Positions 29,111-60,405 of a stretch of DNA of 64,000 bases are shown here, one piece after another. The stretch lies in the NCBI RefSeq assembly GCF_000003605.2, contig NW_003134352.1, positions 187,978 through 251,977 on the forward strand, in the 5' to 3' direction. The number at the start of each line of letters is the position of its first letter. Positions within the stretch are counted from its first letter, which is position 1. The translations under genes and the position numbers were made by a program. The notes below the pieces were generated by a model. The model did not search any database, was not told the DNA's origin, and worked only from the letters and a program-made list of their open reading frames with translations. This DNA comes from Saccoglossus kowalevskii (taxonomy: Eukaryota > Hemichordata > Enteropneusta > Harrimaniidae).

Positions 29111-29209
29111 GTATTGTACTGGTGGTCTTGGTACGTTTTGGTTCACTGCACATGCGTATTAGTAGATTTGATTTGACACAAGTTTCCGTCCAGCAATTTG
29201 TTATGATGC

Positions 29210-29946: not shown

Positions 29947-31464
29947 ACGTGATCATTACCAGCTGTTGAACGTACATTTCATTGGTTCGCCTGTAGATCA
30001 AGCAGTTCGCGGTGCAGCATTTGAACTGGGCAGTAGGCACCTAATTGTTGTGTATGGATTTGATAAGTCAGATCTTTTTCAATTATCTTTATGTTGCCGA
30101 CCTGACTTGCAAATAAAAACAGGGTTATGAATAATATATATGACATGTTCTCAATACTGGTGTAACTACTGATACAAGTTGATGATCACAGTGAATTAAA
30201 TTCCACTATGATTACGGGCATCATTAAAAATGGTGGCATTGATGATATACTCGGAAACAGTAAATACAAAATAATTATTTTAATTAATTTATTTTCAAAA
30301 TTCCTACGGCTTTTTATCTGCGTTTCATAGCTAAATCACAGTCTCTCTGTGATAGAGGGACTGTGGTTGAACGCTATATATAACAATCATTTTGATTTTT
30401 TAAAGATTCAAGAATTTGTTAGCAGTCGGCGGGGTAGGGTGGGATATACCAGTACAATTGAATTGATATTGTAAAACTTGCACGCACGTCGTTTTCTTCC
30501 AAGTTTACGCAAATACGCAAACAACGATCACCAAAAAGCTAATAATTGCATGTGAGCAGAAATCACATATCTTTCTAGTTCCATGATAATGTTGAATTGA
30601 CAGTAAATATCCAACTTGTCCAAAATAACATGTGTCAGCTCTTTTTTATAACATCCTAATATTAGCGTAGACAATCCAAATTACTTGTTTAGCAACATTT
30701 TTGCAACTTACATTGATCTTTTGTAAGCAGTGTATTCTGTATCAAACCATGTGCAATCAACACGTTTGACGAATGATCTAGAACAGCTGGTATATATTTC
30801 ACTGAGATAAAAAACACGGTGTTTTGTTGGCAATATACAACAATGTGTATCAGCGTACTGAGTGTGCGCTAAATTTATAATGATTATCTGCGTACGTATC
30901 GAGACTTCAATGTTATGCCCTCACGCGGCTTACAATAAAATTCTATTGTTTTTATTTTTTCTTTGTATAAAACATACAGCATGTGCAACGAAATCCTTAT
31001 TTTCGGAAGATCGATGATATAATTTTCAAATTAATAATTTATGCTTGTTCATCAGAATTTACAAATTGAAATGGTTAGAAGAAGAAAAAAAAATCATTCA
31101 GTTAAGTAATAGTCTGAATACATCCATAAATATAATAGTGGCTTGAGTTCTTTAATAGTAAAAGTAGACAGTATGTGCTCAGTAATTGTGTATAGTGGAA
31201 TTGTGTGACAAGGGAGAAGTGTTTTCAAAAACCAAAGTCCCCCCAAGTCAAAATGTTTTGCTCGCCCTCTATCGGCAGCCTTTCGTTTCTGTCATTATGC
31301 TAATTTATCATATGCAAATAACTTCTTGACAGACCGGCATGGTGATGGCGGCGTGAACGGAAAAAAGTAAAGTACGCATCAATTTTAACCGAAGGACTTG
31401 AACACGTTCTCCAAATTGTACATTCACTAGAGGTTCATTGTATCGAAGGTCAGTTTAAGTGAGA
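29947..31464. other. Intergenic and 5' flank of the Tudor gene
   Basis: No repeat family or TATA box is recognised. The last ~150 bases are less AT-rich and probably hold the promoter and 5' UTR. Confidence 0.4.
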
Positions 31465-34400
31465 ATGGAGCGATCTGTGAGCGTAGTTTTGGACGAAGGG
31501 GCTTGTATTTCTGTGTACATCACGTCAGTGAAATGCTCGTTGGGGGTATGTCGTTTTTGGGCCCAGTGCGATACTTCGTCCGCTACTCAATTCCAAACAT
31601 TGATGGATAACTGCCAACAATTCATTGAAAATGCCTCGTGTGTGGTAAATGAGAGATCTCTTGATATCGGTGATTTGTGTTTCGCAAAATATTCAGATGA
31701 TTCGAAGTGGTATCGTGGCCGAATTTGTGGGTGTTGCACAACGAAGGGTTACTTCAACGTAAATTTTATCGACTACGGAAATTCAGAGCGTATTCCATTT
31801 TCGGACATCCGATTTGTGGAAGACGTTATGGTTGCTGGCCCCTCGTCCACACAGCCTGCCCAGGAGATTTTATTCGGAACACCGGCCCTGGTAACCGAGT
31901 GTATATTAGCTAATATCGAGCCCGTTGGTGAGTGGGATTGGGACGAAGCTGCCGTCAGTTACTTGACTGAGTGCTTGGAATACGAGGAATTTACTGGCAC
32001 GGTTTTGAAAGCAAGCGGGAACGCAGTCCTCGTTCAGTTGAATTTTTCCAATGGTGGGTCGGTGGCAGATCAGATGGTTCAGTTAGGGTTTGGAAAGTCA
32101 TGTGACAACAGTCATATTTTGCTGGACACTTTCAAGAGATTGGAACTACCGGTTGGTTATGAAGATGATGTCTGTATGGCATGTTGCATCTCCCCTGAAC
32201 TGTTCTGGGTGTATTTAAAATCTGCCCCAATTGATGAAATGACTGCAAAAGTTAGTACCTACTATAGTGGCCTACGTGAAAAAGATCATGAGCTGCAGCC
32301 AATCAGGAAAGGTACTCCGTGTATTGTCAAGTACTCAGGAGATGAGGGATTCTACAGAGCAGAAGTTGTTGAAGTATTGGACTACGAAAAATGCAGAGTC
32401 CAATTTGTAGATTTTGGTGACTCTGAAATCACTTCTTTCTCCAATATCAGAGAAGTTCATTATAGTTTTTTGCAAACTCCGGTTGGTGCCCTGGAATGTG
32501 CATTAGATGGTGTTTCTAGTTTAACTAAAGAAGCAGCTGTGTCTTTGGCCAGGTTAACTGTCGATAAAAACGTGAAAGCAGTTGTAGACTCAAAAAATCA
32601 GAATAAATTATTTGTCCACTTGTACCATGTCCATGATAATACCGCAGTTGATATTGCTGATATAATGGTCCGAGAGAAACTGGTTGAATACTCTCCTGCT
32701 GAGCCACGATGCAAACAAATTAAGCTGGAGACTTTGCAGTTAAAACTTTGGTCCTACCATTCTGTGTATGTCACCCATGTTGATGATCCATTCAATATCA
32801 CTTGCCAGCTGGCTTCTAGCACTGGTGATATCGACGCTATCATGAGTGAACTAGCAACAGCTTGTGGACAAGGAAACACAACAAGTTTACAGTCTTATGA
32901 GATCATGACCCGGTTTGTTTGCTGTGCAAAATATGCAGTGGATGGTGAATGGTATCGAGCAGAAATAACTAAAATTGTTGATGTCGATAAAGTAGAAGTG
33001 AAGTACATAGATTTTGGGAATAAAGAAATTGTTTCAATATCGCAACTCCAGCCTCTACCTGACAACTGTTGCCAGCCAGTCCAGGGAATCAGCTGCAATC
33101 TTGCCTATGTGAAACCGTCTGCCGGTGGGTGGTCTAAGGCCGAGAAAGATTGGTTATTGGATGCAAGTGATGGTTTTCTACTGATTGCATACATTATCGG
33201 GATTGACAAGAATGGGCGATACTTGGTGGAATTATCAGAATCCCAAAATGTGATCAATATGAAAATGCGTGAGAGATGGCCACTAAAAAACCAAATATCA
33301 GACATCACTGCAGAGGCACAGAAGGTAATCGAGAAAGTAGAGTCACCTGTGGTCCAGAAAGAAGAAACAAAACATGCTGATCATGTGCAAAAGACAGTAA
33401 ATCATGCTCCTGAGATTGTAAGTGTGGAATTAAAACAACCAGATATTCAACCAGGAACAAGATTGTCGGTATTAGTCACAACTGTTATCACTGTTTCCAG
33501 CTTCTACTGCCAGCTGACTAATCATATTGATTTACTACAAGATAAATTGCAGAAGTTTTACACTGCCCTCACGCCATCTGATTTGCGATTTACTGGCAAG
33601 TCGGTTTACTGCTGCGCACGTTTCACTGAAGATGATAGCTGGTACCGAGCACAAATTGTGAAAACTGACAAAACTGAAGTTGAAGTTCTATACGTTGACT
33701 ATGGAAATAGTGAGAAGTTGCCCATTTCTCGACTGAAACAACTGACGGCGGAGTTTGCTGTGGATCCTGTCCAGTCTGTGTTGTGTTCGTTAACAGAATG
33801 TGTTTATCGAAGTCTTGCAAGTATCCCACCTGAGAATATTGCTACAGAGTTTCAGAAATTGGTTTCACATCGTGAAATGTGTGCAGTAGTGCTGAGTAAA
33901 GTACTCGATGGTCGGCTTGTGGTAGAGCTTATTGACAGTGAATTAGGCCTAGATATTGGTTCCAAATTGGTGGAGAGTTTTGGATTGCAAAGGGCTGGTA
34001 CACCACCATCACTTCAAATGAAGAAATCACCAACGATAGTAAGATTTTCTGAGTCAGATGAGAGACAACTATCTCCAGTGCCAATAGATCTTGATTTCCA
34101 GAAAATGAAAATGAAGGTTGGATGTCGAGAAGAAGTTCTTGTTACTCACTGCAGTGATCCGGAACACATCTGGTTTCAAGTTTTGGAATATGATGCTGAT
34201 CTTGGCCAGCTGATGGTTGATATTGATAAGTATTGCACAGGTACATCGCGGGGAAATAATTCTGTAGCATGCGGGCTGGGCGTTATTTGCCTTGCACAAT
34301 ACACAGAAGATGACCAGTGGTATAGAGCAGTGATTACTGGCGTTCGTAAGAAGGGAGATGTCGAAGTACAGTTTGTTGACTATGGAAACACGGAGATGTT

Positions 34401-35458
34401 GTTACAAGCTAGATTGAAACCGATAACCAAACAGTTTTTAGATCTCCCTGCCCAGGCAGTTCGTTGTTCGATTATGAGGGATGTACAGACTACAAATATA
34501 AATTGGTCTCCAGAGCAGATTAAGCAGCTGCAAGACATGATCCTGAATAAAGTATTTACAGTCAGTATTACTCAACATGATGAGGTAGAAGATGCATACT
34601 ACGTTGAATTGTATGATGAAGCGCAAATGTGTATCAATCGTAAGTTCAAAGATTCGTGTATGACCCATAACAAGATGTTAGACAAACCACAATCTGCAGT
34701 AACCAAGTTAGTTGCTAACGGTTACCATGATACACAAACAAAACCACCTACTATTGACCAGCCTTCGAAGAAAACCATGTCATCGGTGATGAGATGTGAG
34801 ATGGAAACTCCTTATATTCAACAAATACTGGAAGAAGGGTCCTACTATGATGTGTTGGTATCGTATATAAATAGCCCAAGTCAGTTTTGGTGTCAGATGT
34901 GGAAACACGTTCCGGAGCTAGATATACTGATGGATCAGATTGCTGAGGTTTACTCTAACAGAGACATTGGCGACTTGGCAATTACAACCCCCCATGTTGG
35001 TCAAAAATGCTGTGGTCAGTTTACAGAGGATGATGGATGGTACCGTGCTCAGATCGTCGCCATTGACGGGGAGAATCTGACTCTTATGTATGTTGACTAT
35101 GGCAACTCAGAAACGTTACATATACAGAGAGTCAAAAAGCTCAAACCGGATTTTGTCAAATTCCCAGCACAGGCATTTGTTTGCCGTTTAGATGGGCTAA
35201 AACCCGCTCATGCCACGTGGTCACTGGAAAGCGTACAGAATTTTGAATCACTGACTGGGGAGAAGAGACTTGTTGCTAATGTGGTCAAAGTGGAAAAATG
35301 CGGCCGTGTAATGGTGGATCTTATTGATACAAACGGTACAGATGACTTATCAATCAAAGATGTCCTGGTAGCAAACCAGCATGGTGTGTCTACTTCTCCT
35401 GACATCCCCAAATCATCAAAGTCAAGTGGTATACTGTCTCCTATCAAAGCTGCACAAG
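31465..35458 (+). CDS. Tudor gene exon 1: Tudor domains T1-T6
   Basis: A single 4-kb coding exon. Core aromatic positions (Trp of WYR or its equivalent) are residues 82 (T1), 296 (T2), 496 (T3), 726 (T4), 952 (T5) and 1192 (T6). T1 reads KWYRG...FIDYGNSE; T2 has FYRA and VDFGDSE, so both the Trp and the Asn of the usual DYGN are replaced; T3-T6 keep WYRA with (D/Y)(F/Y)GN. Spacing of 200-240 residues fits full extended Tudor units. It ends at GCACAAG|GTAAGA in phase 1. Confidence 0.95.
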
Positions 35459-38400
35459 GTAAGATTAATTTTCCATCACACCTTGAGGGCGCTTTATATT
35501 CTTGCACCAGAGTGAGGCTATAATGTATATACTGTGAAACCATTTATTTAATTAATTTCACTATTTTGATGTTTTGAGAATATTCATTGTTTTAATTTCA
35601 CGAATTTGTTCATTAGCAAAAATTGTGAAATTAAAATCCTGTGAATAATTAATGCATTTACAGTACTCAATTTGCAAACCAACATAATTCAGTGCAATGT
35701 ATTATGGTTGTTTGTACGTACAATTTATTGTTACAGTTACATTAATAATTGATACATTTGATCTGATTCCCAATATTGAATCATTCTCTGCTTCCATATT
35801 TCTGATTGGTTGAATATAATTATTTACTGAACCAATCAGAAGTCTGGTTTTTGATAGCTACTAAATCTCCAATTTGATCATTTGAATAAAACATATTTTG
35901 ATCATGATATTGATAAAATTATTGAGTAATGTATAAATTTATGTACTAAAAAAAAAAATATATATATTTTATTTTCCCTCTTGGTACATCAAAATGGTAT
36001 CTACTTGTATTGAAACTGCATCATGGCTGAAATACTGCTTTCTTAAAAAAACATTAAAAATATTTTTGTACCATGTGGGTGTAAATTTTTCACATAATTT
36101 GAAAAATACATGTATGCTACAAATGTGTAAGCAGGTGCTGGCTGGTTAATACAGTTACTTTATTCATTATTTGTAGGACGTATGTGTGAATTTATAATGT
36201 CCTTATAGTGGTTATTAGCTAAACGATTTTGCTTATAGTTGAATTTAAAAATTAGGCAGGTTCTGGCTAATGTAGTTAGTTTATTGATTATTAATCATGT
36301 AATGTGTTTGGATGAAAGTCAAGATTTTACCAATAGTCACAATCACAAACCAAATTATTTTTAGATAAACATGATATTATTTTAGGGAGGTTATCATAGT
36401 CAAACCAGCAGTTCCTGGCTGGGTATTCTCAGAGCTCAATGAATGCATTTGACAAAATTAGGGGCCTTAAAAATTTGTTGTGTTACGTTGGTTTGTTGGA
36501 GTAAAATATTAGATGACTTGAGCGATAATGTATATCATTATACATCTGTCACAGTAACACCATTGGTTACAGCATGTCATTATTTTACGGTATTGCACTG
36601 GGTATTTTCATCCTACCATATTAGGAAAAGCAAATTCTAAATATGAAGTACGCACGTTAGCGTTCTCTAATAATAATAAAAACAAACATGGCTTCCCCCA
36701 GGGTTTGACTGGTCCTACTNNNNNNNNNNNNNNNNNNNNNNNNNNNNNNNNNNNNNNNNNNNNNNNNNNNNNNNNNNNNNNNNNNNNNNNNNNNNNNNNN
36801 NNNNNNNNNNNNNNNNNNNNNNNNNNNNNNNNNNNNNNNNNNNNNNNNNNNNNNNNNNNNNNNNNNNNNNNNNNNNNNNNNNNNNNNNNNNNNNNNNNNN
36901 NNNNNNNNNNNNNNNNNNNNNNNNNNNNNNNNNNNNNNNNNNNNNNNNNNNNNNNNNNNNNNNNNNNNNNNNNNNNNNNNNNNNNNNNNNNNNNNNNNNN
37001 NNNNNNNNNNNNNNNNNNNNNNNNNNNNNNNNNNNNNNNNNNNNNNNNNNNNNNNNNNNNNNNNNNNNNNNNNNNNNNNNNNNNNNNNNNNNNNNNNNNN
37101 NNNNNNNNNNNNNNNNNNNNNNNNNNNNNNNNNNNNNNNNNNNNNNNNNNNNNNNNNNNNNNNNNNNNNNNNNNNNNNNNNNNNNNNNNNNNNNNNNNNN
37201 NNNNNNNNNNNNNNNNNNNNNNNNNNNNNNNNNNNNNNNNNNNNNNNNNNNNNNNNNNNNNNNNNNNNNNNNNNNNNNNNNNNNNNNNNNNNNNNNNNNN
37301 NNNNNNNNNNNNNNNNNNNNNNNNNNNNNNNNNNNNNNNNNNNNNNNNNNNNNNNNNNNNNNNNNNNNNNNNNNNNNNNNNNNNNNNNNNNNNNNNNNNN
37401 NNNNNNNNNNNNNNNNNNNNNNNNNNATATATGTATAGAAAATTAAAAAGGATGATATAGACCTATTTGTAAAGATACAACAGGCAAGTTAGTAAATAGA
37501 AACTATTGTCAAAATTATAATGACAATAAAGGAGCACATGTAGATAAAAACAATAATAGAACAGTAGAAATACACACATGTGCTGTGCTGTAGACAGTGT
37601 CACTTTGGGCAGGTGCTGGCTGGTTAATAAAGTTAATTTATTTAATTATAGCAGTCCGAAACAGTAACTTATGGATTGATTGTCCTGTCCCACTTGTATC
37701 TTGCGCATGCCTGGGCCGATCACAATTGGAACTTCAGCCATTTTTGTGCTTAAAATTCATCAAAATCAAGCATTTGTACAATTCCGCAACCAGATCTGGA
37801 CCAATTACATTCAAACTTCACTCAGACATCATACATAATGTAATCATGTCTCACCTATGCACATGTATTTGTTTGGCAGTCCAATTCATGATGGCCAAAT
37901 GGTAAGCCATTTTAAAATGTATTAAAAAGAATTTAAAAAATATAGCAGGAAAACTACAAGCCTGAATGCTTTGATACTTGGTGTATATGTACCTGGGGTA
38001 GACCTCTCTTAGATTTGTTCATTTCATGATGATATCTTCAATTCTCTAATTTTGGTGAATATTTTTGTAATTTTTGGTAAAAAGTGATATTTTTGACTTC
38101 TTGTTAAAAACCGCAAGTCCAATTGCTTTGATATTGCATATATAGATGCTACATGTGGACCTTTCTCAGATTTGTTCATTTCATGATGATATCTTCAATT
38201 CTTTAATTTTGGTGAATATTTTTGGGAAAAAAAGTGATATTTTCGACTTCTTGTTAAAAACCAAAAGTCCAATTGCTTTGATATTACATATATAGGAACT
38301 ACATGTGGATCTTTCTCAGATTTGTTCATTTTGTGATGATATCCTCAATTCTCTAATTTTGGTGAATATTTTTGTCATTTTTGGTAAATAGTGATATTTC

Positions 38401-41400
38401 TGACGTCTTGTTGAAAACAGCAAGTCCAATTATTTTGATATTACATATATAGATACTACACGTGGACCTTTCTCAGACTTGTTCATTTCGTGATGATATC
38501 TTTAATTCTCTAATTTTGATGAATATTTTTGTCATTTTTGGTAAAAAGTGATATTTTTGACTTCTTGTTAAAAACAGCAAGTCCAATTGCTATACATACT
38601 ATACATATTGTTTATTTTCTAATGATATCTTCAGTTCTTCAATTGAAATGTGCCTTGCTAACAGCGGAGCTATCTCAGCCGAGAGGCTGCTTGTTTTTTC
38701 TTACTTTCCGTCTCATAGTTACTAGTTTATATACGAATCTTACTTGTACATGTTGTCATGTTTACTAGTTATTTTTTCTGACCAATAAAAATGTTTTTTC
38801 TTACAGTAACTAGCAACACATGTACCCCCACTGGTACGACCAAATCAGCCAATAGCATTCTGACCCCAGCAACACTGTCCAAAGTCACTCCCGATGTTAG
38901 ATGTCCAACTGAAAGCCGAGCAAAAGATTCAGCGAATCGTGTTGTGCCACCAATCTCTCCAGGGCCACTGGTGTTTCAAGAAATTAACTACAAAAAAGAT
39001 GAAGTTATAAGTGTTACTGTCACTTACATTAACAGCCCGGCTGAATTTTGGTGCCAACCAATCAGAACGTCCGACCAATTCAATGCCCTAATGGATAACT
39101 TGGAATCCTACTACGCCAAACTTGGTGACTCAGAGGGAATTTTGACGCAAACAACTGTCGGTAAGCAGTGTGTTGCTCAGTACTCAGTTGATAACGGTTG
39201 GTATAGAGCAGTCATTGTTGCCCGGCAACCTGGCAAGATGAAAGCCTTCTTCATTGACTATGGTAACACTGAACTCATTACTGCGAACAAAGTCAAAGAA
39301 ATTCAGCCAGCGTTTACAGAGCTGCCAGCGCAAGCGTTCCAATGTTGTCTAAGCGGTTTCTCTGAGGTTGAAGATAAGACAGAGTTTGATGCTTTGGTTG
39401 GTAATGGTGACCCATTAAATTGCAAGGTTACGAAATGTGATTTTGGTCTGTATGACGTATCACTATCAAACGCTGCGAATAAAGATATTGGTGAGGTGCT
39501 TCGTGAAAATTTGAAGAAAGGAAAGCAAGAAGTTGTCAGTCCAGGTAAGTCTGAATATGACTGTACATATTAACATAAACACTTTGGAAAATGCAATCTT
39601 TCCCTCGTATTTTGGCGCAACAATTTCAACATCTTAAAAAATGGACATAATTTTTCATTGGCTAAAATTTTGAAAAAAATATGGAAAAATTATGCAAGTT
39701 CATTTTGTAACGTGTTACAAAATCTAACTGCCGGTCAAAGGATTTGGAGAATTTGCATATTTTCACTAAAGGTGGGGGGTTCTTACCTGGATATACAGGA
39801 TAATTTGAAAATTTTGTTAGTCCCCGTTCGGACAAAGTCAGAAAACGGGGACTAATAATTTGGGTTCTGTCCGTTCAGAGCCATTTCTCGGACACCCTTT
39901 GACCCATCTCGTTCAAACTTGGCATACAGACGACCTACATATCAGCATTCCCACTGTCTTTTTTAACTGAGGGTATATGTACCCTCTATACAGAAAACTG
40001 GAGGTATAACACACATTTTGGGGGTACACCTGTACCCTCTACATCAAAAATTGGGGGTATTTCTAGGAGGGCCAGGGCCAGTATTATTTATCTGCACTGG
40101 GATTGGTTGTTGTAGCTCAGAATAAAGATTATACACAAGATTTCACAGAAATTTATTTATTTTGCAATTCTCATTTATAGACAAGTTTACACACAGTCTT
40201 CATGAAATTTTATGCAATGTAGCTGCTAATCTGACAACCTCATCCTGATTGTATCCTGGTTGCTTGGATGCATACTCAATTATCATTCTATGTACTACTA
40301 CTAGGCCCTTCACAAGCTTGTGATTAAAATCCACAGCATCTGCCTGCTGCGGGTAAACATCTTCGGGCGTGACTGCCTGTTTTTCGTTTTGAACACCGAA
40401 CTGTCCATGGTGCGTACCGCTACCTGCCGTAAGATAATTAAATATTGTGTTAATACGATTATGCTGACCCCCGGCTCTGCCGGCCATGGTAGAATTCCAG
40501 CACGTGGCAGTTCAGAGTTGGCAATTTTTTTGCACGAAAAAAAACATTAAAATTAACTACAGTAAAATTCTACTGTTACAGTGTACGAGACAGTAAAACT
40601 CAAACATGTGTTGCGGCTTGGATTCCCACATTGTCACTACAATAAACGCATTATGCAAGCAAATATCAATGAATACGTAGTTCAAAATTACAGAGATTAC
40701 TTTAAAAACGGCGAAAATTATATGAAAACAGAATACATACCAGTTATACAGTTGATATGTTAGAGTTAAACGTGTAAGGTCCTCGCTAACTGCAAGCAAC
40801 TACAAGCTAACATGCCGCCATTTTATTCTACAATGACCCTCGTTTACGATGACGTCTATGTGTTATCACGTAAACGGTCGTTTGATTGGCTATTTTTTCA
40901 TCATCATTACAAAATTAACCAATCATTTTTTCTGTTACAAAAAAAATACTCCTACTGTTTGGCTTTTCCATCTTGCGTTCAACACCCGGCGTTTTACGTA
41001 ACTTACAAGCTGGTTGTCAAATGTTCGCGCGGAGTTCAATGATTTTCAGGCTAAATTAACGTTGACGTAGACCTATGAAAAACGTAGGCGCAATATAATT
41101 TTATACATTAATGGAACGTAGATGAGTTGAAATTTGGCGCGCACTATTTTATTTATACGAGAATTACGTACTGCAGTACGTGAATGGGAATGCTGCATAT
41201 GCACACCAATTTTTATTATCATTCGATTAAATATGGCTGACTGGCAGCCATTTTGTCCATCAAATTCTGATATTTAAACGTGTCCAGAACTGTTTCTCGG
41301 AGCTGAACTGAGCTGATTTCAATCGAGCTTTGTATGGTGATCATGCAAGATGGCCATTTTGTTTTTTTCACGTTTTCGTGCTGATTCCTCCATAAGATAT

Positions 41401-50400: not shown

Positions 50401-53400
50401 AGGTCTATTTTATGGATTATGCTAACACTGAAACTGTTCCTCTGACTCATCTCCGGATCATTCCATCTGAGATGTTTGAAGTTACTGCCCAAGCCCTGAA
50501 GTTTTGTCTTGCAGATGTGCAACCAATTGATAATGACTGGACAGATGATGCTAAAACACTATTTGAAGGCAAGTATGATCAAATTCCTCATTTTGGTACC
50601 ACATTTTTCCACAATATATGTCTTAATGAACCTAATTTCCTGTTGTCTACAGGTCTTGATCAACCTGTTTTTTTTTTAATGGACAGTTTATTTTGGCATT
50701 CATAGCATTATTTAAGGTTTATGAAATGCAATGTATGGATCTTTCTGAAGGCATTGTGCTGGTTGATCAAATGTCCGAAAATATTGACCTGCATATATCA
50801 GATATGCACTTATGCGATTCAGCAAACTTCAAAGAAAACCATGAACCCTGTTAAGTAATTACCAATTTCGGTCATACCACAATATCTGGGTGGCCACTTT
50901 TTTAGCCCCGTTGTCGACTTATCGTATGAGTGATTGTCCGTCGTCGTCCGCATCAACTTTTTAGCTCCGCTGTCGACTTTGTCGAGCGGAGCTTATCATA
51001 TGAGTGATTGTCCGTCGTCCGTGTCAATGTTTTACTTTTTTGACTTCTTCTTGAAAACTACAAGCCTGAATGCTTTGATACTTGGTGTATATGTACCTTG
51101 GGTAGACCTCTCTTAGGTTTGTTCATTTCATGTTGATATCTTCAATTCTCTAATTTTGGTGAATATTTTTGTCATTTTTGGTAAAAAGTGATATTTTCGA
51201 CTTCTTGTTAAAAAACGCAAGTCCAATTGCTTTGATATTACATATATAGGTACTACATGTGGACCTCTCTCAGATTTGTTCATTTTGTAATGATATCTTT
51301 AATTCTCTAATTTTGGTGAATATTTTTGTCATTTTTGGTAAAAAGTGATATTTTCGACTTCTTGTTAAAAACCGCAAGTCCGATTGTTTTGATATTACAT
51401 ATATAGGTACTACATGTGGCCCTCTCTCAGATTTGTTCATTTGATGATCATATCTTCAATGATTATTTTTGTGTTTTTTGGTAAAAAGTAATATTTTCGA
51501 ATTCTTGTTGAAAATAGCAAGGTTGATTGTTCATTTTCTAATGATATCTTCAGTTTTTATTAATTGCAATGTGCATTGCTAACAGTGGAGCTATCTCAGC
51601 TGACAGGCTGCTTGTTCACTATCATTTTTAAAATGTTTTGCTCATTTGCAGAATGGTGCAAGGATAAATTACTAACAGCAAGAGTTGTGAGTATAAGCTC
51701 AGACAAGAAAGTTCAAGTCAAGTTGTATGATGTCAATAATACAGATATTAGTAAGATTCTGATATCAAAAAATTATGCCAAACCTTTAGGCGCTGTGAAG
51801 AAAGGTTAGTGGTTTAAGTATTAAGCAGGGACCTGGCTAATGAGTAAAATATGTGAATATTTTATAAGCTTTAAAAATTATTTTGCTTGCAGAAGGTACA
51901 ATTAAATAAAAGATAACAAAGAGGCAGGGAATCAAAACTTGTTTCCATGGAAACAATGACTTTGTGTTAAACCCTACTCTGGCATACATAAAACTTAGGT
52001 TTTCAATTCAAAAATTAGTTTGGGTACCACAATTTTTTTCATACAAAAAACAGTCACAAGGTATAAATTCCCTAAATGTCAGGATATTCCTGCATCAGAA
52101 AGGTTAGCAGTGACCATCTTCAAATAAATAGATAAAACAATAAGGTTAGGCAACCATGGTGATGTGTGATCAAGATCCCATTGATAATAAAACATGAGGT
52201 AATGAGGTGAAATAAATGTAAGGGTGTATGCAAAGACACAAAATGTTATTTTTATACTCTGTATATGTGTGTAATTGTAATATATGTTCTCTTCAGACCC
52301 TCTTACTTTTGGGTTGAAATATATGCGTACTAATTACTTAATTTGCATCATTATTTGCAGATAATATTTTGGCTAATTTGACACTGTTTCACTTGTATCC
52401 TAAAAACTACACAACATATTTCAACAAAACTTGGTTCATATATCACAGGCTTTTATTAATTGCTTCATTTGCATATTGAATCGTCTATTTTAAAATTTGT
52501 CTTGGTTTTTGACTCCTGTGTGCAAAGAACACAATTGGAGTGTTTGCGGGTAGTGCATTCGCTTCTGTTTATTACCACCCACTCATAAAATTGTAATAAA
52601 ACTAGTAAATACAGTATTCTGTATTTGTACTTCATGCCTCCAATACCTTCAGCACATAGGATATAGTTCCAGAAAGGTAAATGCAGTTTACAATATAGAT
52701 GATAGGTGAGAAAAGTTTGCATTTTTTCCCATGTTTGATATCTGTGTGATGTGATTGAAATAATACGATGGATTTGAGTCAGGTGATTTGTTGCTTACTT
52801 ATTTATTTGTATGAGAGGTGCCTTTGTGTGAATACCTTTGTTCTGTGAGTGGATTTTAACCAATGTGAAACTCTTACTTACATCTTCAACTGGTGATACC
52901 GCATAGTTATGCTTAGAGTTTGTTCGGTTGCAGAGCCTGTCACATTGTCAGAAAGTGCCAACCAAGAAAACATAGATGAAAAAAGCATTGTAGATGCAGC
53001 TATTGCCTTGGCAACAGTGCATCCACCTGAAGGTGTGAATTATGACGAAGATATAAGTGGTGAAGAAATAGTTTTACAAATGGGGAATGTGAGTGAATTA
53101 GAAGTTGCCATGGCAACCAATGCTAAAGCAGATGGTTGCCAGAGTGATTCTACAGCTGTACAGGAACATGATGTATGGGGAGATAGTGACGATAGACTGC
53201 TTGATACAACGCAGGAAACAATCCCTGAAGCATTACAGAGTGAAACAGTGATAGAGATGACAAATGCAGATAAAATCGCATTGCAAAGCGATACGAGTGA
53301 AGATTTTCTTGAGAAGAGTGATGTTAGCATTCAAGAAAAAGAGAGATCTGAAGTCAAGGAGGGTGTTAAATTGTTTGGTACACCTCAGAGCGAAGATTTT

Positions 53401-56400
53401 CTTGAAACTGAGCAGACTGGAAAGAATGTTGAATCAAAAAAAGCTGAAAAATCTTCAGGTAAGGAGGGTGATAAATTGTTAGATATGCCATTGAGCAATT
53501 GGAGTGAAGATTTCCTTGAAACTGAACGGGCTGGAAAGAATGTTGAATCAGGAAAAAATGGTGCAAGATCGGAAATTGAGGATGGTGATGAATTGTGTGA
53601 TACACCACAGAGCAATTGTAGTAATGATTTTCTTGAAAGTGCACACAATGAAAACAAGAATGTTGACACAGACACTGCAAAGTCAGAAACCATTTTTGAG
53701 ACACTGCGAAGTAAAGATTTTCTAAAAGCAGATGTGGCTGCAAATGAAAATGTTGATTCTGAAAAAGATGGAGAAGGATCAGGAAATACGGAGGTTGATG
53801 AGTTTTGTGAGGATTTTCTGGACAGTATTGATGATGGAACCTTGCAAAAAAAACTACCAGACACGAGAGACTGGGCAATATATGAAGATTCCACTCCTGT
53901 GAAAGCAATACCGAAAATAAACATAATATCAGTTTCTGACAACACCAATTCTTGTGACATTTCTGACTACACTGAAGATCTTGAAGAGGACAGCATAGAA
54001 GGCGATAGTCAGTATGTTGCCATGGAGACAAAGATGAAAGAACCAGATGAAGGTATAGGTGAATGTGACACAGACTTAGTTATGAACACAATGATGGTAG
54101 AGGCTACCTCTCAAGACGTTAGCACAAAAATTGAATTTGGTGAGGATATTTCTTCAGAAAAAAAAGATGGCTATGAACATTTGGGAAAGATCGATAGCAG
54201 AGTACTTGATGGAGCAGGTGATGGGCTCTGTACAGATAAGACCGTTTTGGAAACAGATGTCATTGTGGCCACTGTTGACTGTGCTGGTGACAGAAGAAAA
54301 TTGGTGAAGCTCATACCAGAGGAGTTGGGATGGACTGAGAGTACAACCAGTCTGAGCGATATCAGGAAGCTCTCCTCACTAGAAATGGCAGAGGATGTTG
54401 TAGACAGATCCGAGACTGAACTGCCAAGGGGAAAGACTAGTGGTGATAGTGGGGTATCTGAGGTTCCTGGCGAAGGGGAGTGGTCAAGCCCTGGAAAGAC
54501 AGCTGATGCTGAGATGATGAGTTTGTTTGTCGTGACAGAAGCCAAACCTGGTGATATAAGTGAACACAGTGGTGTGTTTAGTGATGAGAATACTGTGGGG
54601 GATGACAATGGGCAGAAAAAAGGTAAGAAATCTATTTTGTAAGAGGTAGTAATCTTTGCTGAAATAAAAATTATACTATTCATATTTACATATCCTACAG
54701 GTTTCTAAATGTATATTTATTTGTTAACATGAAGGTCATGTTGGGTCAGTATTATAATATCTGATGAAAAATCTGTTCGTATGGACAAATGTTGGTGATG
54801 AAATTTGTAATTTTATACTGTCTAGAATTGTAATATCTAGTTTAAATGCGATTATACTGCCCTCTTACATTTTATTTTGGAAAATGTCTAGATCAAATTC
54901 CAGTGATAATGAAATTTGGGATTATACAGCCTGCCCCCTAGCATTGTATTATGGAGAATGTCTAGATCAAATGCAAGTGAGAATGGAATTTTAAATTATA
55001 CTGCCCTCTAACATTGTATTATGGAGAATGTCTAGGTCAAATGCGAGTGATGATGAAATTTGTGGTTATACCGCCCTCTAGCAATGTGTTATGGAAGATG
55101 GCACCTGAATTATGATCATCACACTGCCACACTATGAATAACTCATTACTGCTATCCTCCCTTAATTGGAGTACATGTACCATCAGCGATTCCAGTCTGG
55201 AGCTACTTCATCTTCTCATGACCTGAAGTTTTCTAAACTATTTTTCACTTGAACCATATTCTTGAAATACATATATTGTATGTGCATGTAAGCCAACAGT
55301 TGCACTTATTCTGGATCAATAAACTAAGACTTATTACCATAGTTGCACCTTTGTCATTTACATAAGGGTATATGATATCCACAATTAATAATCTTTTCTT
55401 TCAGTTATGCCTATAATCAAATTTATTGAATATATTCTGCACATCACTAATATTTAATGTATCATTTTGATTATCGTGCTACATGTAATTTGAAATGATA
55501 ATCAAGTAAAATGGGTGTTTTGTACTCTTTATGCTGTTCTTGCACTTGCACATGCATCTTTTCCGTCTTTTTCTTTTGCAGATTTAGTTAATAAATTCGT
55601 AGATGACATCATCGAGAAAGCTGCTAGAGCAGAGATTAGTGTAGGAGACAGTTGCATTTCACAAAAAAGCTCCCCAGGTTTAAGATCAGTGTTAGCATTC
55701 TGTGAAGATGAATACAAGCACACTGAGGATAGCATAGTTGTTGAAAGTACTGATTCAAGAGTCGAAAGGGATTGGCGTTTAGTTGCTATCACAGAACACA
55801 CTGCAGACGAGGTGAAAGATGCATGTATGGATTCACAGATCTGTGTAGTAGCGGATAGCAAGGTTATAGATAAGGTTGTAAGTGGATACCAAGCTGGTGC
55901 TATAGGTGATCACAGCCAAGAAGGCCATTCTGAGGCTGTAGGTTATAGCGACTATGTAGGCACTGTGACAACCTCTTTTGATTCCAATGATTTTGTAAAC
56001 ACTGAAGTCCAGGATAGGGTTATAGATAACCAGACTGTAGATGATAATGACTTGGTAGATGCAGAAAGTCAGGTTGTAGATTACAGTGATTTTGTAGATG
56101 CAGAAGGAAAGGCTATAGATGATAGTAACTTTGTAGATGCAGAAGGAAAGGCTATAGATGATAGTAACTTTGTAGATGCAGAAGGAAAGGCTATAGATGA
56201 TAGTAACTTTGTAGATACAGAAAGAAAGGCTATAGATGATAGTAACTTTGTAGATGCAGAAGGAAAGGCTACAGATCATAGTAACTTTGTAGATGCAGAA
56301 GGAAAGGCTATAGATGCTAGTGCTTCAATAGATACAGAAGGAAAGGCTATAGATGATAGTGTTTTCATAGATACAGAAGGAAAGATTACAGATGATAGTA

Positions 56401-59400
56401 ACTTTGTAGATACAGAAGGAAAGGCTATATATGATAGTAACTTTGTAGACACAGAAGGAAAGGCTATAGATGATAGTGACTTTGTTGACAGCGAAGACCA
56501 TTCTAGTACCATAGATGATAGTGATTTTGTAGATGCAAATGGCCAAGCTATGGCTGTAGAATACTATGACACTGAGAACCAAACTAGTATCATAGGTGAT
56601 AGGAATTTTGTAGACACTGAAGGCCAAGCTAATCCTAAAGACAGTAAAGATGTAGATAGTGTAGCTAGAGCTGTATCCGTAGCTTTTAGTGACTTTGTAG
56701 ATAATGAAGTCCAAACTATAGATGATAGTGTTGACCTTATAGATATGGATGGTCAATGTAGAGCTACAGAAGACAGTGAGCTAGTCACTGAAGGCAAAGC
56801 TATTAGCATAGTTGGTAGTAAACTTGTAGATTTGGATGGTCAAGGTAGAGCTACAGAAGACAGTGAGCTAGTCACTGAAGGAGAAGCTATTACCATTGAT
56901 GATAGTGACTTTGTAGATGGTCAATGTAGAGCTACAGATGACAGTGAGCTAGTGGACAACAAACAGCAAGTGATCGATGAAAACCAAGAAATGAGTGACA
57001 GTACTGTCAGTGGAACAGAATTGCAGAGTAGATTAGTTGCACTGTCAGGAAGTTCTAGTGATCTCATGAGTGGTTTAGGTGAGCACTTTTAGAGTATGGA
57101 TATACCTTAATCTGCTGCTTTTCGTAATCTGTTCATCTTCCTGTAATAAAAATGCGACTTTGATCACAGATACTTCAAGTTATCACAGCACAGAAAAAAA
57201 GTGTGATGCTCCTCCAATAGGTGTTTGTTATGTTAATATTCACACCACTTTCTGTCAATTAATTGCAATTGTCTGCACTTAACCATGCTTGAGTGATCAC
57301 CAAAAACTAATGCTGCTATTGTTTAAAAACTTTGCATCTGTATCTTGTACATTCCAGGACCGATCATGTTCAAAATTTACACCTATCATGTGCACATTCC
57401 CATTTGATTACCTCAAGATGGCCGACTGGTGGCCCTGTTTCGCTTCTATATGTGAACTTATATGCTTCGATAAATGAACTGATGAATGAGACCAGATTAG
57501 TTTTCAGTGAAAATCTGTTTAATATGTAAAATCAAATGGCATGTTTCTATGTCTGTCTTCACAACTATTTGCACAAATGCATTGAACCTAGCCTGCAGTT
57601 TGTGTAAATAAATGTCAAATACTTGTTAATAAATTCATGCTTATTCATGAGCTAATTTCCATATTATCTGCTCAAATGTGTTTACTCTATGTGGCAAATA
57701 AACTGAACCTTTACACTCAGTACACATAGTACACTCAAATGAAGTGGAACCTGGCACAGACTGTGCGTGTTGTTTCACTTCACACATAAGCACTCCTAGA
57801 ATCTCCAATAAGGGTAAATATGTGCCAGAATCATGTTTAACATTCCAGAACAGGTATGCCAGGTGCCACATGGGCAGTGTAAACTGACAAACTCCTTGGC
57901 TATAAGAAAATAAATATACTTCTATTTGTAGACCCAAAAGAAGATGTTCCAGCCGAGTTAATGAGGACCAAGTTGCCATTACAAAGGTAATTTTGAGCAA
58001 TTGTTTTCAGCCCATAATACTTTGCTGTTTTCAGCCCATAATACTTTGCTGTTTTCAGCCCATAATACTTTGCTGTTTTCAGCCCATAATACTTTGCTGT
58101 TTTCAGCCCATAATACTTTGCTGTTTTCAGCCCATAATACTTACCTGTTTTCAGCCCATAATACTTTGCTGTTTTCAGCCCATAATACTTTGCTGTTTTC
58201 AGCCCATAATACTTTGCTGTTTTCAGCCCATAATACTTTGCTGTTTTCAGCCCATAATACTTAGCTGTTTTCAGCCCATAATACTTTGCTGTTTTCAGCC
58301 CATAATACTTAGCTGTTTTCAGCCCATAATAATTTGCTGTTTTCAGCCCATAATACTTTGCTGTTTTCAGCCCATAATACTTTGCTGTTTTCAGCCCATA
58401 ATACTTTGCTGTTTTCAGCCCATAATACTTTGCTGCCGTTGTGGCTGAGAACATTTGTGTATATCTGTTTTCTCAAAAATTGCATGACCAATTTATACGA
58501 CAGTTTTCACAAAGTTGTCCAACAATACCAGTATGAGTCAACATCATTTTGATTTAATTTATTAAAACCCTTATATGAATGTCTCTCTGTATGGTTCTTA
58601 ACCTTTTCACCACCAGACTTTCATGCCCAAATTTTTCTCCACTTTTTTTTTTCTTGCATTCTTCAACATTTTTTGAAATGAAATCTTCAAGCCAACAGAC
58701 AAAATTTGAGTCAATTTTCAGTATTGGCTAGTTTTTGTCCCAATCTTCTGAAGGAAAGTGTAGACTATAAACAGGACTATTCTGTGAATTTGTGATGAAA
58801 AAAGATAACTGGTGGAGAGAAGGTTTAAATGAATCTGTATTTAATCCACTTTGTCAATTTTAATACATTATGCTGAACATTCATAATATTTTTAAAAAAA
58901 ATCTTCTGCTTCTTGTCAAATCGTTGAAAATGATAGCGATGAAATCGTCATGAATTCAAGAGATCTGTTTACAATTATCTAGAATGATTTTGATTGTTTA
59001 TTTCAGAAAAAGTCGCGCTAGTACATTTTCATTGGATGACTGGGTGGATATAAACACGGATGATATGGCGGATACTGACACAGGTCAATATACAATGATG
59101 TATTGTTTATTTGTTAATGACTGTATTGTTCAACCATGTCTGTTTTGTATGAGGTACCTCTCTAATGTAAACCCAAAAAGTGATTTATTGTGGCTCTATT
59201 ATTACCATGTAAAATGCCTGCTTTCCTAATTGCTGTTACCTGAACCACTTGTATAAAAAAAAAAAATTCGCTCTCTTGTAAGTGAAGGGATTGAAAATGT
59301 GTATTGAACATATATAAAACTGATCTGCAACAATGTTTATAGAGGTATTTTATGTAAATCAACTCAGTGGAGAAGGTAGTGGAACTAATGTTTGGTTTAG

Positions 59401-60405
59401 ACAGCTCTTGTGACCAAGTAAAAACATGAAACTTTGTTAGATTGCAATTCATTTGTGAGATCAGATCTGTTGAAGGGCAAGATGGCATTAGTTCCTGTTG
59501 TCAACAAAGTCAGAAAACTTGTGGATTCACCTCCGTATGTTCGTCTGTTCATATTTAGCCATATCTCACATTTGCTTAGGCCAATCCAGTTCAAACTTCA
59601 TACATAAATCAGACATGTACCAGTATATAGGAAATATGCGCATGCACTTTTATTATGATTTGATTCAAGATGACTGGATGGCAGCCTTTTTAATGCCAAA
59701 AATGCATTAAAAACACACATTTTTACTTTTCTGGAACCAGATCTCAGTCGTGTGTGAACGGATTTGGTTTAAACTTGGTACATACATTGAACAGAATGGG
59801 ACATTGATGCGTGTCTATTTTTCAGTTGAAGTTTAAAATGGTTGTCTGGTAGCCATTTTATTTCAAAGAATGCAGTTCTGGATCCATATATGCAACATGA
59901 CCAATCAAGTTCAAACTACACATTCATTTTATGATCCAAGTTGAGATGATTTAAGGCAAAAATGTTTTAAAATGAAAAATTTTGGAACTGAATCTCAGTC
60001 TTGCATGTCTGTTCAAACTTAGTTTTATACATTGAACATAAAGAGATCTTTATGCATTCTTTTTTTTTCTGGCTGGGGTCTAAAATGGCTGACTGATATT
60101 CAACATGCCTGGACTGATCAAGTTCACATATACATCAGACATCATATACATCTTTGTCGCCATCAAATCCAAAATGGTTGACTGACGATCATGTTTTAAC
60201 AAATCAGTTCCACAGAGCCTGGACCAATCAGGTTTAAACTTCATACATCACACATTAGGTCACATATTTACATGTATATTTCACAAACAGGGACTATGTC
60301 ATTGACAATGACTTGTTTCACTATGTTTTTTCCCCTGTAGAAGATCCTGGTGAAGAATTAAAAAACGAGTGGAAATCACAAAAGAAGAAAGGTCAGACAG
60401 AATGA
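31465..60405 (+). CDS. Giant multi-Tudor protein, 15 Tudor cores (Tudor/TDRD6/TDRD15-like), gene span
   Basis: Nine exons join in frame: 31465-35458, 38807-39544, 45376-50568, 51652-51804, 52934-54622, 55582-57078, 57932-57986, 59007-59083, 60341-60405 (13,461 nt, about 4,486 residues). ATG 31465 has a strong context (GAGAATGG) with an in-frame TAA three codons upstream. Fifteen cores of the form (A/K)YS..(D)G.WYRA ... F.DYGN(T/S)E are visible, each preceded by an SN-like half with a (F/W)xCQL-type strand, i.e. extended Tudor domains. Family knowledge: such proteins bind symmetrically dimethylated arginines of Piwi proteins and build germ granules for piRNA work; Drosophila Tudor has 11 domains and vertebrate TDRD6 about 7. 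After residue ~3,360 the protein is acidic and repetitive. It could be orthologous to TDRD6, TDRD15 or Tudor; I cannot choose. An additional exon could hide in the gap at 36720-37426. Confidence 0.9.
35459..36719 (+). other. Tudor gene intron 1, 5' part
   Basis: AT-rich intron, nothing recognised except a short (AT)n near 35960. Confidence 0.5.
36720..37426. other. Assembly gap (N run)
   Basis: 707 unknown bases inside intron 1 of the Tudor gene. Any protein read through it is meaningless. Flanking exons share phase 1, so a phase-1 exon here cannot be excluded. Confidence 0.99.
37640..37935. repeat. Degenerate interspersed repeat (CCATTTT/GATGGCC type)
   Basis: Contains GACCAATTACATTCAAACTT, CAGACATCATACA and ATGATGGCCAAATGG, wording shared with 41230-42060 and 59500-60290. 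Confidence 0.45.
37949..38692 (+). mobile_element. Hairpin-ended core-repeat element, copy A (5' truncated)
   Basis: Five ~152-bp core repeats (each with GACTTCTTGTTAAAAAC, TTTGATATTACATATATAG and TTTGTTCATTTC) end in AGCGGAGCTATCTCAGCCG plus a hairpin (CAGCC-GAGA-GGCTG) and CTT. The 5' hairpin seen in copies B-D is missing. Confidence 0.75.
38807..39544 (+). CDS. Tudor gene exon 2: Tudor domain T7
   Basis: Acceptor TTTTTTCTTACAG. A Thr/Ser/Pro-rich linker is followed by one extended Tudor domain: VTVTYINSPAEFWCQP, then GKQCVAQYSVDNGWYRAVIV (Trp1463) and FFIDYGNTELI. Phase 1 in and out, donor CCAG|GTAAGT. Confidence 0.94.
39819..40090. mobile_element. Hairpin-start element fragment (GTCCCCGTT type)
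   Basis: A perfect 10-bp inverted repeat (AGTCCCCGTT at 39819-39828, AACGGGGACT at 39844-39853) encloses CGGACAAAGTCAGAA. It is followed by TTCTGTCCGTTCAGAG and CGTTCAAACTTGGCATACA, the same architecture as the AGCTCCGCT elements but different words. Confidence 0.55.
40200..40487 (-). CDS. Possible small antisense gene, 95 residues, unknown function
   Basis: Minus-strand frame starting at a strong-context ATG (TACCATGG) with an in-frame stop 27 bases upstream: MAGRAGGQHNRINTIFNYLT ... ending EVVRLAATLHKIS. Composition is balanced and helix-prone, unlike random AT-rich frames nearby. An AATAAATAAA on this strand lies just past the stop (near 40150-40162). Upstream a possible 5' UTR intron (donor CTG|GTATGT at 40740, acceptor AACAG at 40573) and an AAAATGGCGGC, YY1-like, at about 40812-40824 could mark a TATA-less promoter. 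I do not recognise the family; it may also be a processed gene copy. It is nested in Tudor intron 2. Confidence 0.45.
   Translation of the reverse strand: MAGRAGGQHNRINTIFNYLTAGSGTHHGQFGVQNEKQAVTPEDVYPQQADAVDFNHKLVKGLVVVHRMIIEYASKQPGYNQDEVVRLAATLHKIS
41230..42068. repeat. Repeats with CAAGATGGCCGACTGGCGGC, including a 355-bp tandem duplication
   Basis: The block 41396-41650 recurs at 41751-42005 almost unchanged (same GATATGGCCTGATTCAGTTC, same GTGCACGTCACTTTT). Units contain the imperfect palindrome ATGGCCGACTGGCGGCCAT. Non-coding. Confidence 0.85.
42069..42602 (+). mobile_element. Hairpin-ended core-repeat element, copy B
   Basis: Starts TAGCTTCGCTGTCGACTTTG then TCGAGCGGAGCT (near-palindrome), a GTCCGTC-rich tract, three ~157-bp core repeats and the 3' hairpin end (AGCGGAGCTATCTCAGCCG, GATAGGCTGCTT). 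Complete by structure; no coding capacity. Confidence 0.85.
42603..43345 (+). mobile_element. Related element with a different core and similar 3' hairpin
   Basis: GGGCCAATGTTTTTCA-type blocks recur at about 42750, 43030, 43150 and 43210. It ends in ACAGCGGAGCTCTTTTGACC, a short hairpin GACCGCAAGGTC, and CTT, mirroring the terminus of copies A-C. Confidence 0.55.
43407..43735. mobile_element. MITE with TA target site
   Basis: 329 bp between TATCCTCGGGGCGGA and TCCGCCCCCGAGGATA-type ends (~15-bp inverted repeats, TA at each edge). Richer in GC than its surroundings; no transposase. Confidence 0.7.
43736..44921. other. Tudor gene intron 2, central part
   Basis: No gene supported. A 37-bp unit with CATGCTGTGATTTTCTCTAC is duplicated near 44687-44745. 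Confidence 0.45.
44922..45033. mobile_element. MITE, family B, truncated and inverted
   Basis: Reverse-strand copy of the 28978 element: GCGTCCTGTTCGATATGGGA at the left and GCGACGACCACCGTGCTTTAA-type end at the right. The terminus expected before 44922 is absent. Confidence 0.75.
45376..50568 (+). CDS. Tudor gene exon 3: Tudor domains T8-T15
   Basis: A 5,193-nt exon (phase 1 to 1) with eight cores; Trp positions 1660, 1862, 2068, 2274, 2471, 2664, 2973 and 3239. T9-T12 share GMPCC(A/T)KYS, DGAWYRAEVVEITGD and VKVLFVDYGNTETIV almost unchanged. T13 keeps WYRG and FVDYGN. T14 has WKRA and lacks the usual Tyr before it, so its cage looks damaged. T15 has DYAN instead of DYGN. Between T13 and T14 is a Glu-rich linker (LEDLAGQPTPEEPSG). 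The exon ends ATTTGAAG|GCAAGT: a GC donor, since only this junction keeps T15 in frame with the exon at 51652. Confidence 0.95.
45990..48370 (+). repeat. Four tandem Tudor-encoding units of ~618 bp
   Basis: Equivalent Trp codons lie at 46227, 46845, 47463 and 48054: spacing 618, 618 and 591 bp. Units 1-3 share long stretches with no or very few differences, including synonymous sites and the linker; unit 4 is more diverged and 9 residues shorter in the linker. Confidence 0.95.
50569..50570 (+). promoter_or_regulatory. GC splice donor (GC-AG intron 50569-51651)
   Basis: GAAG|GCAAGT is the classical GC-donor consensus. Splicing to TTTGCAG at 51651 restores the C-terminal half of domain T15 in phase 1 (TLFE|EWCKDKLLTARVV). 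Confidence 0.85.
50903..51613 (+). mobile_element. Hairpin-ended core-repeat element, copy C (with partial 5' duplicate)
   Basis: A short broken 5' end (50903-50961) precedes a full element from 50962 (TAGCTCCGCTGTCGACTTTG) with about 3.5 core repeats of ~156 bp to the 3' hairpin (GAGCTATCTCAGCTGACAGG, CTGCTT). It fills most of the GC-AG intron and ends about 40 bases before the acceptor. Confidence 0.85.
51652..51804 (+). CDS. Tudor gene exon 4: end of Tudor domain T15
   Basis: 51 codons: EWCKDKLLTARVVSISSDKK, VQVKLYDVNNTDISKILI and on to AVKKG. This matches the strand-helix that closes other extended Tudor units (for example LTAKVV...VDLFD in T13). Donor AAAG|GTTAGT. Confidence 0.9.
51805..52933 (+). 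other. Tudor gene intron 4
   Basis: AT-rich, no recognised element. Confidence 0.5.
52934..54622 (+). CDS. Tudor gene exon 5: acidic disordered region with SEDFLE repeats
   Basis: 563 codons, very rich in Asp, Glu, Ser and Thr, no folded domain seen. A degenerate ~45-residue unit recurs: SEDFLEKSD, SEDFLETEQTGKNVES, SEDFLETERAGKNVESGK, SNDFLESAHN, SKDFLKAD, CEDFLDSIDD. Phase 1 in and out. Coding status is supported by the long frame bounded by good splice sites (GTTGCAG, AAAAAG|GTAAGA). The role is unknown; an acidic flexible tail in a granule scaffold is an inference. Confidence 0.88.
54760..55105. repeat. ~76-bp tandem repeat, four degenerate copies
   Basis: ATTATACTGCCCTCTAACAT, TGTATTATGGAGAATGTCTAG and AGTGATGATGAAATTTG recur in Tudor intron 5. 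Confidence 0.8.
55582..57078 (+). CDS. Tudor gene exon 6: acidic region with 13-residue repeats
   Basis: 499 codons, phase 1 to 1. From about 56090 to 56500 a 39-bp unit encoding variants of DAEGKAIDDSNFV repeats about ten times; looser DDSDFVD copies continue to 56940. No folded domain. The minus strand is also open here because of the repeat and is not a gene. Acceptor TTTTTCTTTTGCAG, donor TTTAG|GTGAGC. Confidence 0.87.
56085..56500 (+). repeat. 39-bp coding minisatellite (13-residue unit)
   Basis: GATGCAGAAGGAAAGGCTAT plus AGATGATAGTAACTTTGTA in tandem. A length divisible by 3 keeps the frame. Confidence 0.92.
57932..57986 (+). CDS. Tudor gene exon 7 (55 nt)
   Basis: Acceptor CTATTTGTAG; encodes DPKEDVPAELMRTKLPLQ; donor AAAG|GTAATT. 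It enters in phase 1 and leaves in phase 2, matched by the next exon. Confidence 0.7.
58003..58436. repeat. 24-bp array, 18 copies, each shaped like a splice acceptor
   Basis: Unit TTTGCTGTTTTCAG|CCCATAATAC: a pyrimidine tract and CAG in every copy. It begins 16 bases after the exon 7 donor. Both strands are open through it (24 is divisible by 3), giving artefact frames. Confidence 0.95.
58598..58828. mobile_element. TTAA-bounded MITE, family A, opposite orientation
   Basis: 231 bp; TTAACCTTTTCACCACCAG at the left, CTGGTGGAGAGAAGGTTTAA at the right. The interior is the reverse complement of the 19294 copy (for example CAAAATTTGAGTCAATTTTC). Confidence 0.8.
59007..59083 (+). CDS. Tudor gene exon 8 (77 nt)
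   Basis: Encodes KSRASTFSLDDWVDINTDDM and ADTDT; acceptor TTTATTTCAG, donor ACAG|GTCAAT. Phase 2 to 1. Confidence 0.72.
59498..60295. repeat. Degenerate interspersed repeats in the last Tudor intron
   Basis: Starts with an imperfect hairpin (AAGTCAGAAAACTT and neighbours), then several ~150-180-bp blocks with CCAATCCAGTTCAAACTTCA and AAATGGCTGACTG-type words, like 37640 and 41230. Confidence 0.5.
60341..60405 (+). CDS. Tudor gene exon 9 (probable last exon)
   Basis: Acceptor TTTTTTCCCCTGTAG; reads EDPGEELKNEWKSQKKKGQT then E and TGA at 60403-60405. A possible donor AAAG|GTCAGA at 60392 could instead splice to an acceptor at 61089 (ATATTTCAG), giving a different end. No poly(A) signal lies close to 60405; AATAAA at 61550-61555 may serve both forms. 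Confidence 0.6.

Follow-up and report, generated by a model that had tools for sequence, protein, structure and literature searches.

A nine-exon gene model encoding a chain of Tudor domains

In the 64-kb stretch of Saccoglossus kowalevskii DNA analysed here (hereafter the window), long open reading frames (ORFs) lie on the + strand at 31459-35523, 38782-39573, 45282-50705, 52897-54642 and 55494-57092. Our gene model spans 31465-60405 on this strand and comprises nine exons, which join to 13,461 nt encoding 4,486 residues with no internal stop. A reading of this DNA from sequence alone (hereafter the sequence-only reading) had proposed a one-frame Tudor protein some 4,500 residues long at these coordinates, and both its length and its position proved correct. 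Exon 1 (31465-35458; residues 1-1331) encodes extended Tudor domains D1-D6, with cores at about 31669-31830, 32311-32472, 32911-33072, 33601-33762, 34279-34440 and 34999-35160; an in-frame TAA (31456-31458) lies 6 bases upstream of the ATG at 31465. Exon 2 (38807-39544; residues 1332-1577) encodes D7 (core at about 39160-39321), and exon 3 (45376-50568; residues 1578-3308) encodes D8-D14 and most of D15, with cores at about 45582-45743, 46188-46349, 46806-46967, 47424-47585, 48015-48176, 48594-48755, 49521-49682 and 50319-50480. The C-terminal part of D15 is encoded by exon 4 (51652-51804; residues 3309-3359). TDRD6 likewise has many domains in few large exons.

An acidic tail follows, encoded by exon 5 (52934-54622; residues 3360-3922), which carries a 117-bp tandem repeat at 53393-53645, by exon 6 (55582-57078; residues 3923-4421) and by three short exons placed by eye: exon 7 (57932-57986; residues 4422-4439), exon 8 (59007-59083; KSRASTFSLDDWVDINTDDMADTDT) and the last coding exon, exon 9 (60341-60405), with its stop codon at 60403-60405. 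Two ATTAAA polyadenylation-like hexamers (61527 and 61546, together covering 61527-61551, + strand) lie downstream of the stop. Intron 1 (35459-38806; GT-AG, phase 1; 3.3 kb) holds the only N run in the window, 707 bases at 36720-37426, and this assembly gap could conceal another in-phase exon or a 16th domain. Intron 2 is 5.8 kb long, and intron 3 (50569-51651; phase 1), which interrupts D15, is of the GC-AG type (AAG/GCAAGT ... TTTGCAG).

Several other features share the window. Upstream, on the + strand, exons of a 3',5'-cyclic nucleotide phosphodiesterase occupy 9997-16968: PF00233 matched 14196-14579 (E 2.2e-12) and, below the cut-off, 9997-10248 (E 0.0028), with no match at 16651-16968. 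By eye, we take these exons to be PDE1-like. A frame open on the - strand at 13887-14195 (RRWRWLGHVLRM...) had no Pfam match and by eye resembles the tail at the C-terminus of LINE-type reverse transcriptases. A 29-bp unit is repeated 12 times in tandem at 29193-29553, some 2 kb ahead of the start codon. One dispersed element, built on a tandem core of 157 bp, recurs in introns 1, 2 and 3 (38001-38591, 42219-42518 and 51105-51460); its flanks, as judged by eye, are AGCTCCGCTGTCGAC- and AGCGGAGCTATCTCAGC-type sequence, and it resembles a mobile element that carries tandem repeats internally. Intron 2 also holds a 355-bp unit twice in tandem (41352-42069; 96% matching) with many 'tggcggccattttg' motifs by eye, and, on the - strand at 40203-40484, a protein-like 94-codon open frame that begins MAGRAGGQHNR, with no Pfam family above cut-off, which is possibly a nested gene. 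A 24-bp unit repeated 18 times (58002-58435; 97% matching) is open in several frames on both strands and falls in intron 7 of our model. Downstream of the gene, a 69-codon frame on the + strand (62143-62349; KFRWAWLDKEVTLTMRIWKK...CLYCNDLINYG) appears protein-like by eye and had no Pfam match.

Splice junctions and coding signals suggest a single transcript

As the sequence-only reading had held, splice phases agree at all eight introns (seven phase 1, one phase 2). However, the sites were picked by eye with phase in mind, so the match is a sign of consistency and no independent test, with the short exons 7-9 depending most on this phase-guided choice, and one intron, the third, has a GC donor. 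Donors matched MAG/GTRAGT at 7-9 of 9 positions at every intron. Acceptors were moderate by a simple pyrimidine score or count: at four of the eight introns, an equal or better score was reached by 7-16% of the AG sites between 30 and 62 kb.

One junction could be tested independently, because intron 3 cuts through D15. Against a profile built without D15, exon 3 matched up to profile position 148 and exon 4 from position 146 (E=2.9e-4 for exon 4). We considered the two donor candidates for exon 3 that scored at least 6 in 50401-50705, each joined to the acceptor at 51652 only. The GT donor at 50573 was rejected, as a stop follows a few codons into exon 4; the GC donor at 50569 stays open. For exons 4-9, the modelled frame was the best against the codon usage of exons 1-3 in 6/6 cases, with 300 random 900-nt windows, read in one frame only, as the background control. 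Tandem Repeats Finder gave 14 rows across 28000-62400. The five within exons had periods of 27, 21, 117, 39 and 87, all divisible by 3, which supports translation of the tail; outside exons, one of the nine rows (two of which are one array) had such a period.

The same DNA could instead hold two or three adjacent Tudor genes on one strand and in phase, for example a 6-domain gene in exon 1, a 9-domain gene in exons 2-4 and exons 5-9 apart. Reading exon 1 through into intron 1 meets a stop after 21 codons, which would give a 6-domain product, and introns 1 and 2 are both long. Each of exons 2-6 has a length divisible by three and phase 1 at both ends, so phase agreement discriminates little between possible partners, and only moderate acceptors precede exons 2, 3, 5 and 7. 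The donors, however, score 7-9 of 9 at every junction, the first ATG of the exon 2 ORF and that of the exon 5 ORF each sit in the intron just before the acceptor, and the split D15 ties exon 3 to exon 4. We consider separate genes quite unlikely, and our gene model suggests a single transcript across all nine exons.

The tail, for which about 1,100 acidic residues had been proposed, comprises 1,127 residues in the model (exons 5-9), with about 25% D+E, 9% K+R and a pI of 4.05. Its repeats have units of 39, 87 and 117 bp, the 39-bp (13-residue, DDSNFVDAEGKAI-like) repeat lying at 56038-56485 and the 87-bp repeat at 56740-56953, both in exon 6. The ORFs of exons 5 and 6 matched no Pfam family at E 0.1. 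Our guess is that the tail is a like-charged, probably disordered spacer or condensate-tuning element.

Fifteen extended Tudor domains in a Tudor-only architecture

Searching the exon ORFs against Pfam with hmmscan gave six PF00567 (TUDOR) stretches in the ORF at 31459-35523, one at 38782-39573 and eight at 45282-50705, each counted at E 0.1. The three whole-ORF scores ran from 115.8 through 489.7 to 698.4 bits, against a curated cut-off of 23. The total of 15 is what the sequence-only reading had counted, with none missing; as it depends on the assembled, near-identical tandem array D9-D12, the exact number is uncertain and is best read as about 13 older domains plus two young ones. Profiles built by leaving out one domain at a time recovered 15/15, with E values from 2.4e-25 (D1) to 1.7e-74 (D10), and each of the 15 covers most of the 204 profile positions, 10-186 at the least. 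When the 15-domain profile was run against the 1,979 six-frame ORF segments of the window (at least 20 aa each), the strong matches were the three Tudor ORFs and exon 4. No 16th domain appeared in these segments, the other listed matches all having an E of 0.28 or worse.

A profile of 14 domains, made without D15 because it spans an intron, matched 41 distinct PDB sequences at E 0.001, with TDRD1 the best (1e-44). We modelled two of the 15 domains, D6 and D14, with AlphaFold2, using the other 13 in-exon domains as the alignment in each case, and obtained pLDDT values of 89.7 and 88.6. Foldseek matched both models to extended Tudor structures of TDRD1, TDRD2, Papi, Tudor, SND1, Krimper and Qin (best E 3.5e-20 for D6 and 8.5e-16 for D14), several of which are complexes with methyl-arginine peptides. 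All 15 domains by profile, and the two modelled ones by predicted structure, thus appear to have the make-up of extended Tudor domains, a Tudor barrel within an SN-like half of about 180-200 aa.

The Pfam scan covered the ORFs of five of the nine exons (1, 2, 3, 5 and 6), and in these no match to a LOTUS, KH, helicase, kinase or RING domain reached E 0.1. On these five ORFs, we rejected a protein of the TDRD4/RNF17, TDRD5/TDRD7, TDRKH or TDRD9/TDRD12 type, which would call for RING, LOTUS, KH or helicase domains. Regular expressions for MYND and RING found nothing in the 1,979 ORF segments, which gives no sign of an upstream exon carrying either motif. Other Pfam matches were to small-barrel families (SMN_Tudor, Agenet, SAWADEE and others, some above cut-off) and to unrelated families, and the best stretch always lay inside the Tudor regions. 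Across the exon ORFs scanned, the predicted protein has multiple T3 domains and no accessory domain, the architecture of a Tudor-only scaffold. It is a further member of the Tudor-only family with multiple extended Tudor domains, and not a new kind of protein.

The phylogeny of individual domains that the sequence-only reading had proposed was carried out in part, as a tree of the domains with five segments of solved structure. Most nodes were poorly supported, and only four reached 95: D9-D12 (100), D10-D12 (95), D10/D11 (96) and a pair of Tudor segments (98). With nodes this weak, the tree does not assign orthology to TDRD1, TDRD6 or Tudor.

Aromatic cages support a high potential valency

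The cage of the second extended Tudor domain of Krimper (eTud2) is reported as Tyr624, Tyr630, Tyr646, Tyr649 and Asn651 (PMC8249470). In the equivalent columns, four aromatics and the Asn are complete in 13/15 domains, and the four aromatics are kept in 14/15. D2 reads YYFFD, with Asn changed to Asp. D14 (49332-49946, + strand) reads SKFYN: its first two aromatics are replaced by S and K, and the extended Tudor fold is retained in its model. With two cage aromatics lost in D14, not every domain should read methyl-arginine. Incomplete cages are described as possibly favouring unmethylated arginine (PMC8249470), and by analogy D14 may have another partner or a structural role. The high methyl-arginine valency that the sequence-only reading foresaw is supported, as a potential, by the cage residues of most domains, with D14 as an exception; binding to Piwi tails is carried over from the family.

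Judging from the family, 13-14 of the domains would recognise PIWI-type tails by their symmetrically dimethylated arginines, D14 would have some other ligand or a structural role, and the protein would gather several PIWI/piRNP clients in germ granules (nuage). A structural or RNA-binding role outside the piRNA pathway, for instance as a scaffold of somatic granules whose cages serve non-PIWI clients with GAR motifs, would draw on the ability of extended Tudor cages to read sDMA peptides of proteins other than PIWI, as for E2F with TDRD1 and SND1 (titles of 5m9n and 5m9o). We regard such a role as unlikely, in view of two Tudor-only relatives: Drosophila Tudor is described as a scaffold of germ granules, in which it binds methylated Aub (PMC12261137), and for TDRD6 an interaction with PIWIL1 is reported (PMC10212539). 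PIWI binding and germ-granule scaffolding are, for the present protein, what we infer from its family.

A young tandem array with putative hybrid domains

Four of the domains, D9-D12, form a tandem array (46157-48283, + strand) with unit spacings of 618, 618 and 591 bp. Identity is 65-95% among these four and 19-34% for other domain pairs. Compared half by half at the DNA level, the array is a mosaic. In the N halves, D9 shares 56-58% with D10-D12, and D10, D11 and D12 share 91.5-96% among themselves; in the C halves, D12 shares 66% with D9-D11, and D9, D10 and D11 share 97-98%. The cores are 90.5-99% identical in all pairs. This mosaic of half-by-half identity identifies D10 and D11 as putative hybrids, each with a D12-type N half and a D9-type C half joined in the common core. 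The linkers D9-D10 and D10-D11 are identical across the 123 positions compared, and the D11-D12 linker differs from both at 34/99 positions. Successive units share an exact repeat of 318 bp (46421-46738 = 47039-47356).

Such likeness could in principle reflect strong purifying selection with no recent duplication or conversion, and the dN/dS of 0.27-0.48 between units does indicate constraint. Against this, third positions are nearly identical in the C halves that D9 and D10 have in common (2/65 differ) versus 22/42 differing in their N halves, and the 318-bp stretch is identical at every base. Since silent positions are homogenised, selection at the protein level alone does not explain the array, and we consider this reading highly improbable.

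The assembly itself could also have inflated the count, by placing two haplotypes of the 618-bp unit in tandem, in which case the real number of domains would be 14 (or 13). The segment running from the D9 core to the D10 N half differs from the corresponding D10-D11 segment at only 19/618 positions, or 3% (10 of 171 in the core, 4 of 195 in the C half, none of 123 in the linker and 5 of 129 in the N half). Two alleles could differ to this extent, or an assembly error could be at work, and the exact 318-bp repeat fits the same idea. However, the differences are clustered, with none over 318 bp and 10 within 171 bp of core, the diverged D11-D12 linker implies that at least one extra unit is old, and the array contains no N run. 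It is possible that one 618-bp unit is an assembly duplication of two alleles; for the array as assembled, we judge inflation unlikely.

The array points instead to growth by unequal crossing-over or conversion within Tudor cores. In the simplest reading of its sequence, D9 and D12 would have been ancestral neighbours whose cores underwent unequal crossing-over or gene conversion, which turned two domains into four. The chain would thereby have gone from 13 domains to 15, with the last step a recent one. We tentatively suggest, with rather less than even confidence, that valency is still changing in this lineage: hybrid domains would be born by recombination inside adjacent cores, regardless of exon boundaries, and the number of 618-bp units may vary between individuals, giving variation in the valency of a PIWI scaffold. 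In a literature search, we found no report of tandem Tudor domain birth.

Comparison with known Tudor scaffolds

Taken together, the locus probably holds one nine-exon gene encoding a Tudor-only scaffold with 15 extended Tudor domains and a 1,127-residue acidic tail, with a PIWI-related, germ-granule role suggested by its family and a recent history of growth. Work in Drosophila makes the case that every Tudor domain of an 11-domain scaffold is non-redundant (PMC11956945; PMC12261137), and a 15-domain relative with two apparently recent hybrid domains offers a natural test of that view. If the number of units varies between animals, one could ask how valency relates to granule formation and to the control of transposons. 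The array also presents a concrete route by which Tudor chains may lengthen.

Among solved structures, TDRD1 is the closest relative of exon 1 (5m9n, E 7e-27, in D5) and of exon 3 (4b9x, E 5.9e-18, in D13), whereas D8 fits TDRKH rather than TDRD1 (6pi7, E 4.2e-17). TDRD1 carries a MYND finger, as listed in PMC12147562. None was found here by Pfam on the five exon ORFs or by the motif scan, and the in-frame stop lies just before the ATG, in a window that holds an assembly gap. Vertebrate TDRD6 and TDRD15 share the Tudor-only architecture (multiple T3, no accessory domain) as tabulated in the same survey (PMC12147562), but TDRD6 has fewer domains: the sequence-only reading had put them at about seven, a review gives eight (PMC10212539), and 15 are present here.

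Drosophila Tudor is likewise a chain of extended Tudor domains, and the D6 and D14 folds match its structures (3nth/3nti/3ntk/4q5y/4q5w). It has 11 domains versus 15 here, and its cage positions are described as varying among domains (PMC12261137), whereas most cages are complete here. The long acidic tail and the young array D9-D12 with its putative hybrids are features noted in the present protein. One 2025 paper gives the 11 domains of Drosophila Tudor as the highest known number. Our literature search found no protein described with ten, 12, 13 or fifteen Tudor domains, and a search for relatives in IMG/VR gave 30 pattern matches, 0 of them confirmed.

The survey of Piccinini et al. (2025) reports cnidarian proteins of orthogroup OG164 with up to 19 T3 Tudor copies (PMC12147562). 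These share with the present protein, on a comparison by description only, a very high T3 copy number in one chain. The survey describes OG164 as bricolage with relationships that are not resolvable (PMC12147562), in agreement with the weak nodes of our domain tree. Fifteen domains thus exceed the figure quoted in the Drosophila field and fall below the survey maximum of 19; the protein, proposed as one of the largest Tudor scaffolds, stands among the larger ones but holds no record. Since cnidarian proteins reach 19 copies, size alone is not new, and what is new here is the young array D9-D12 with D10 and D11 as its putative hybrids.
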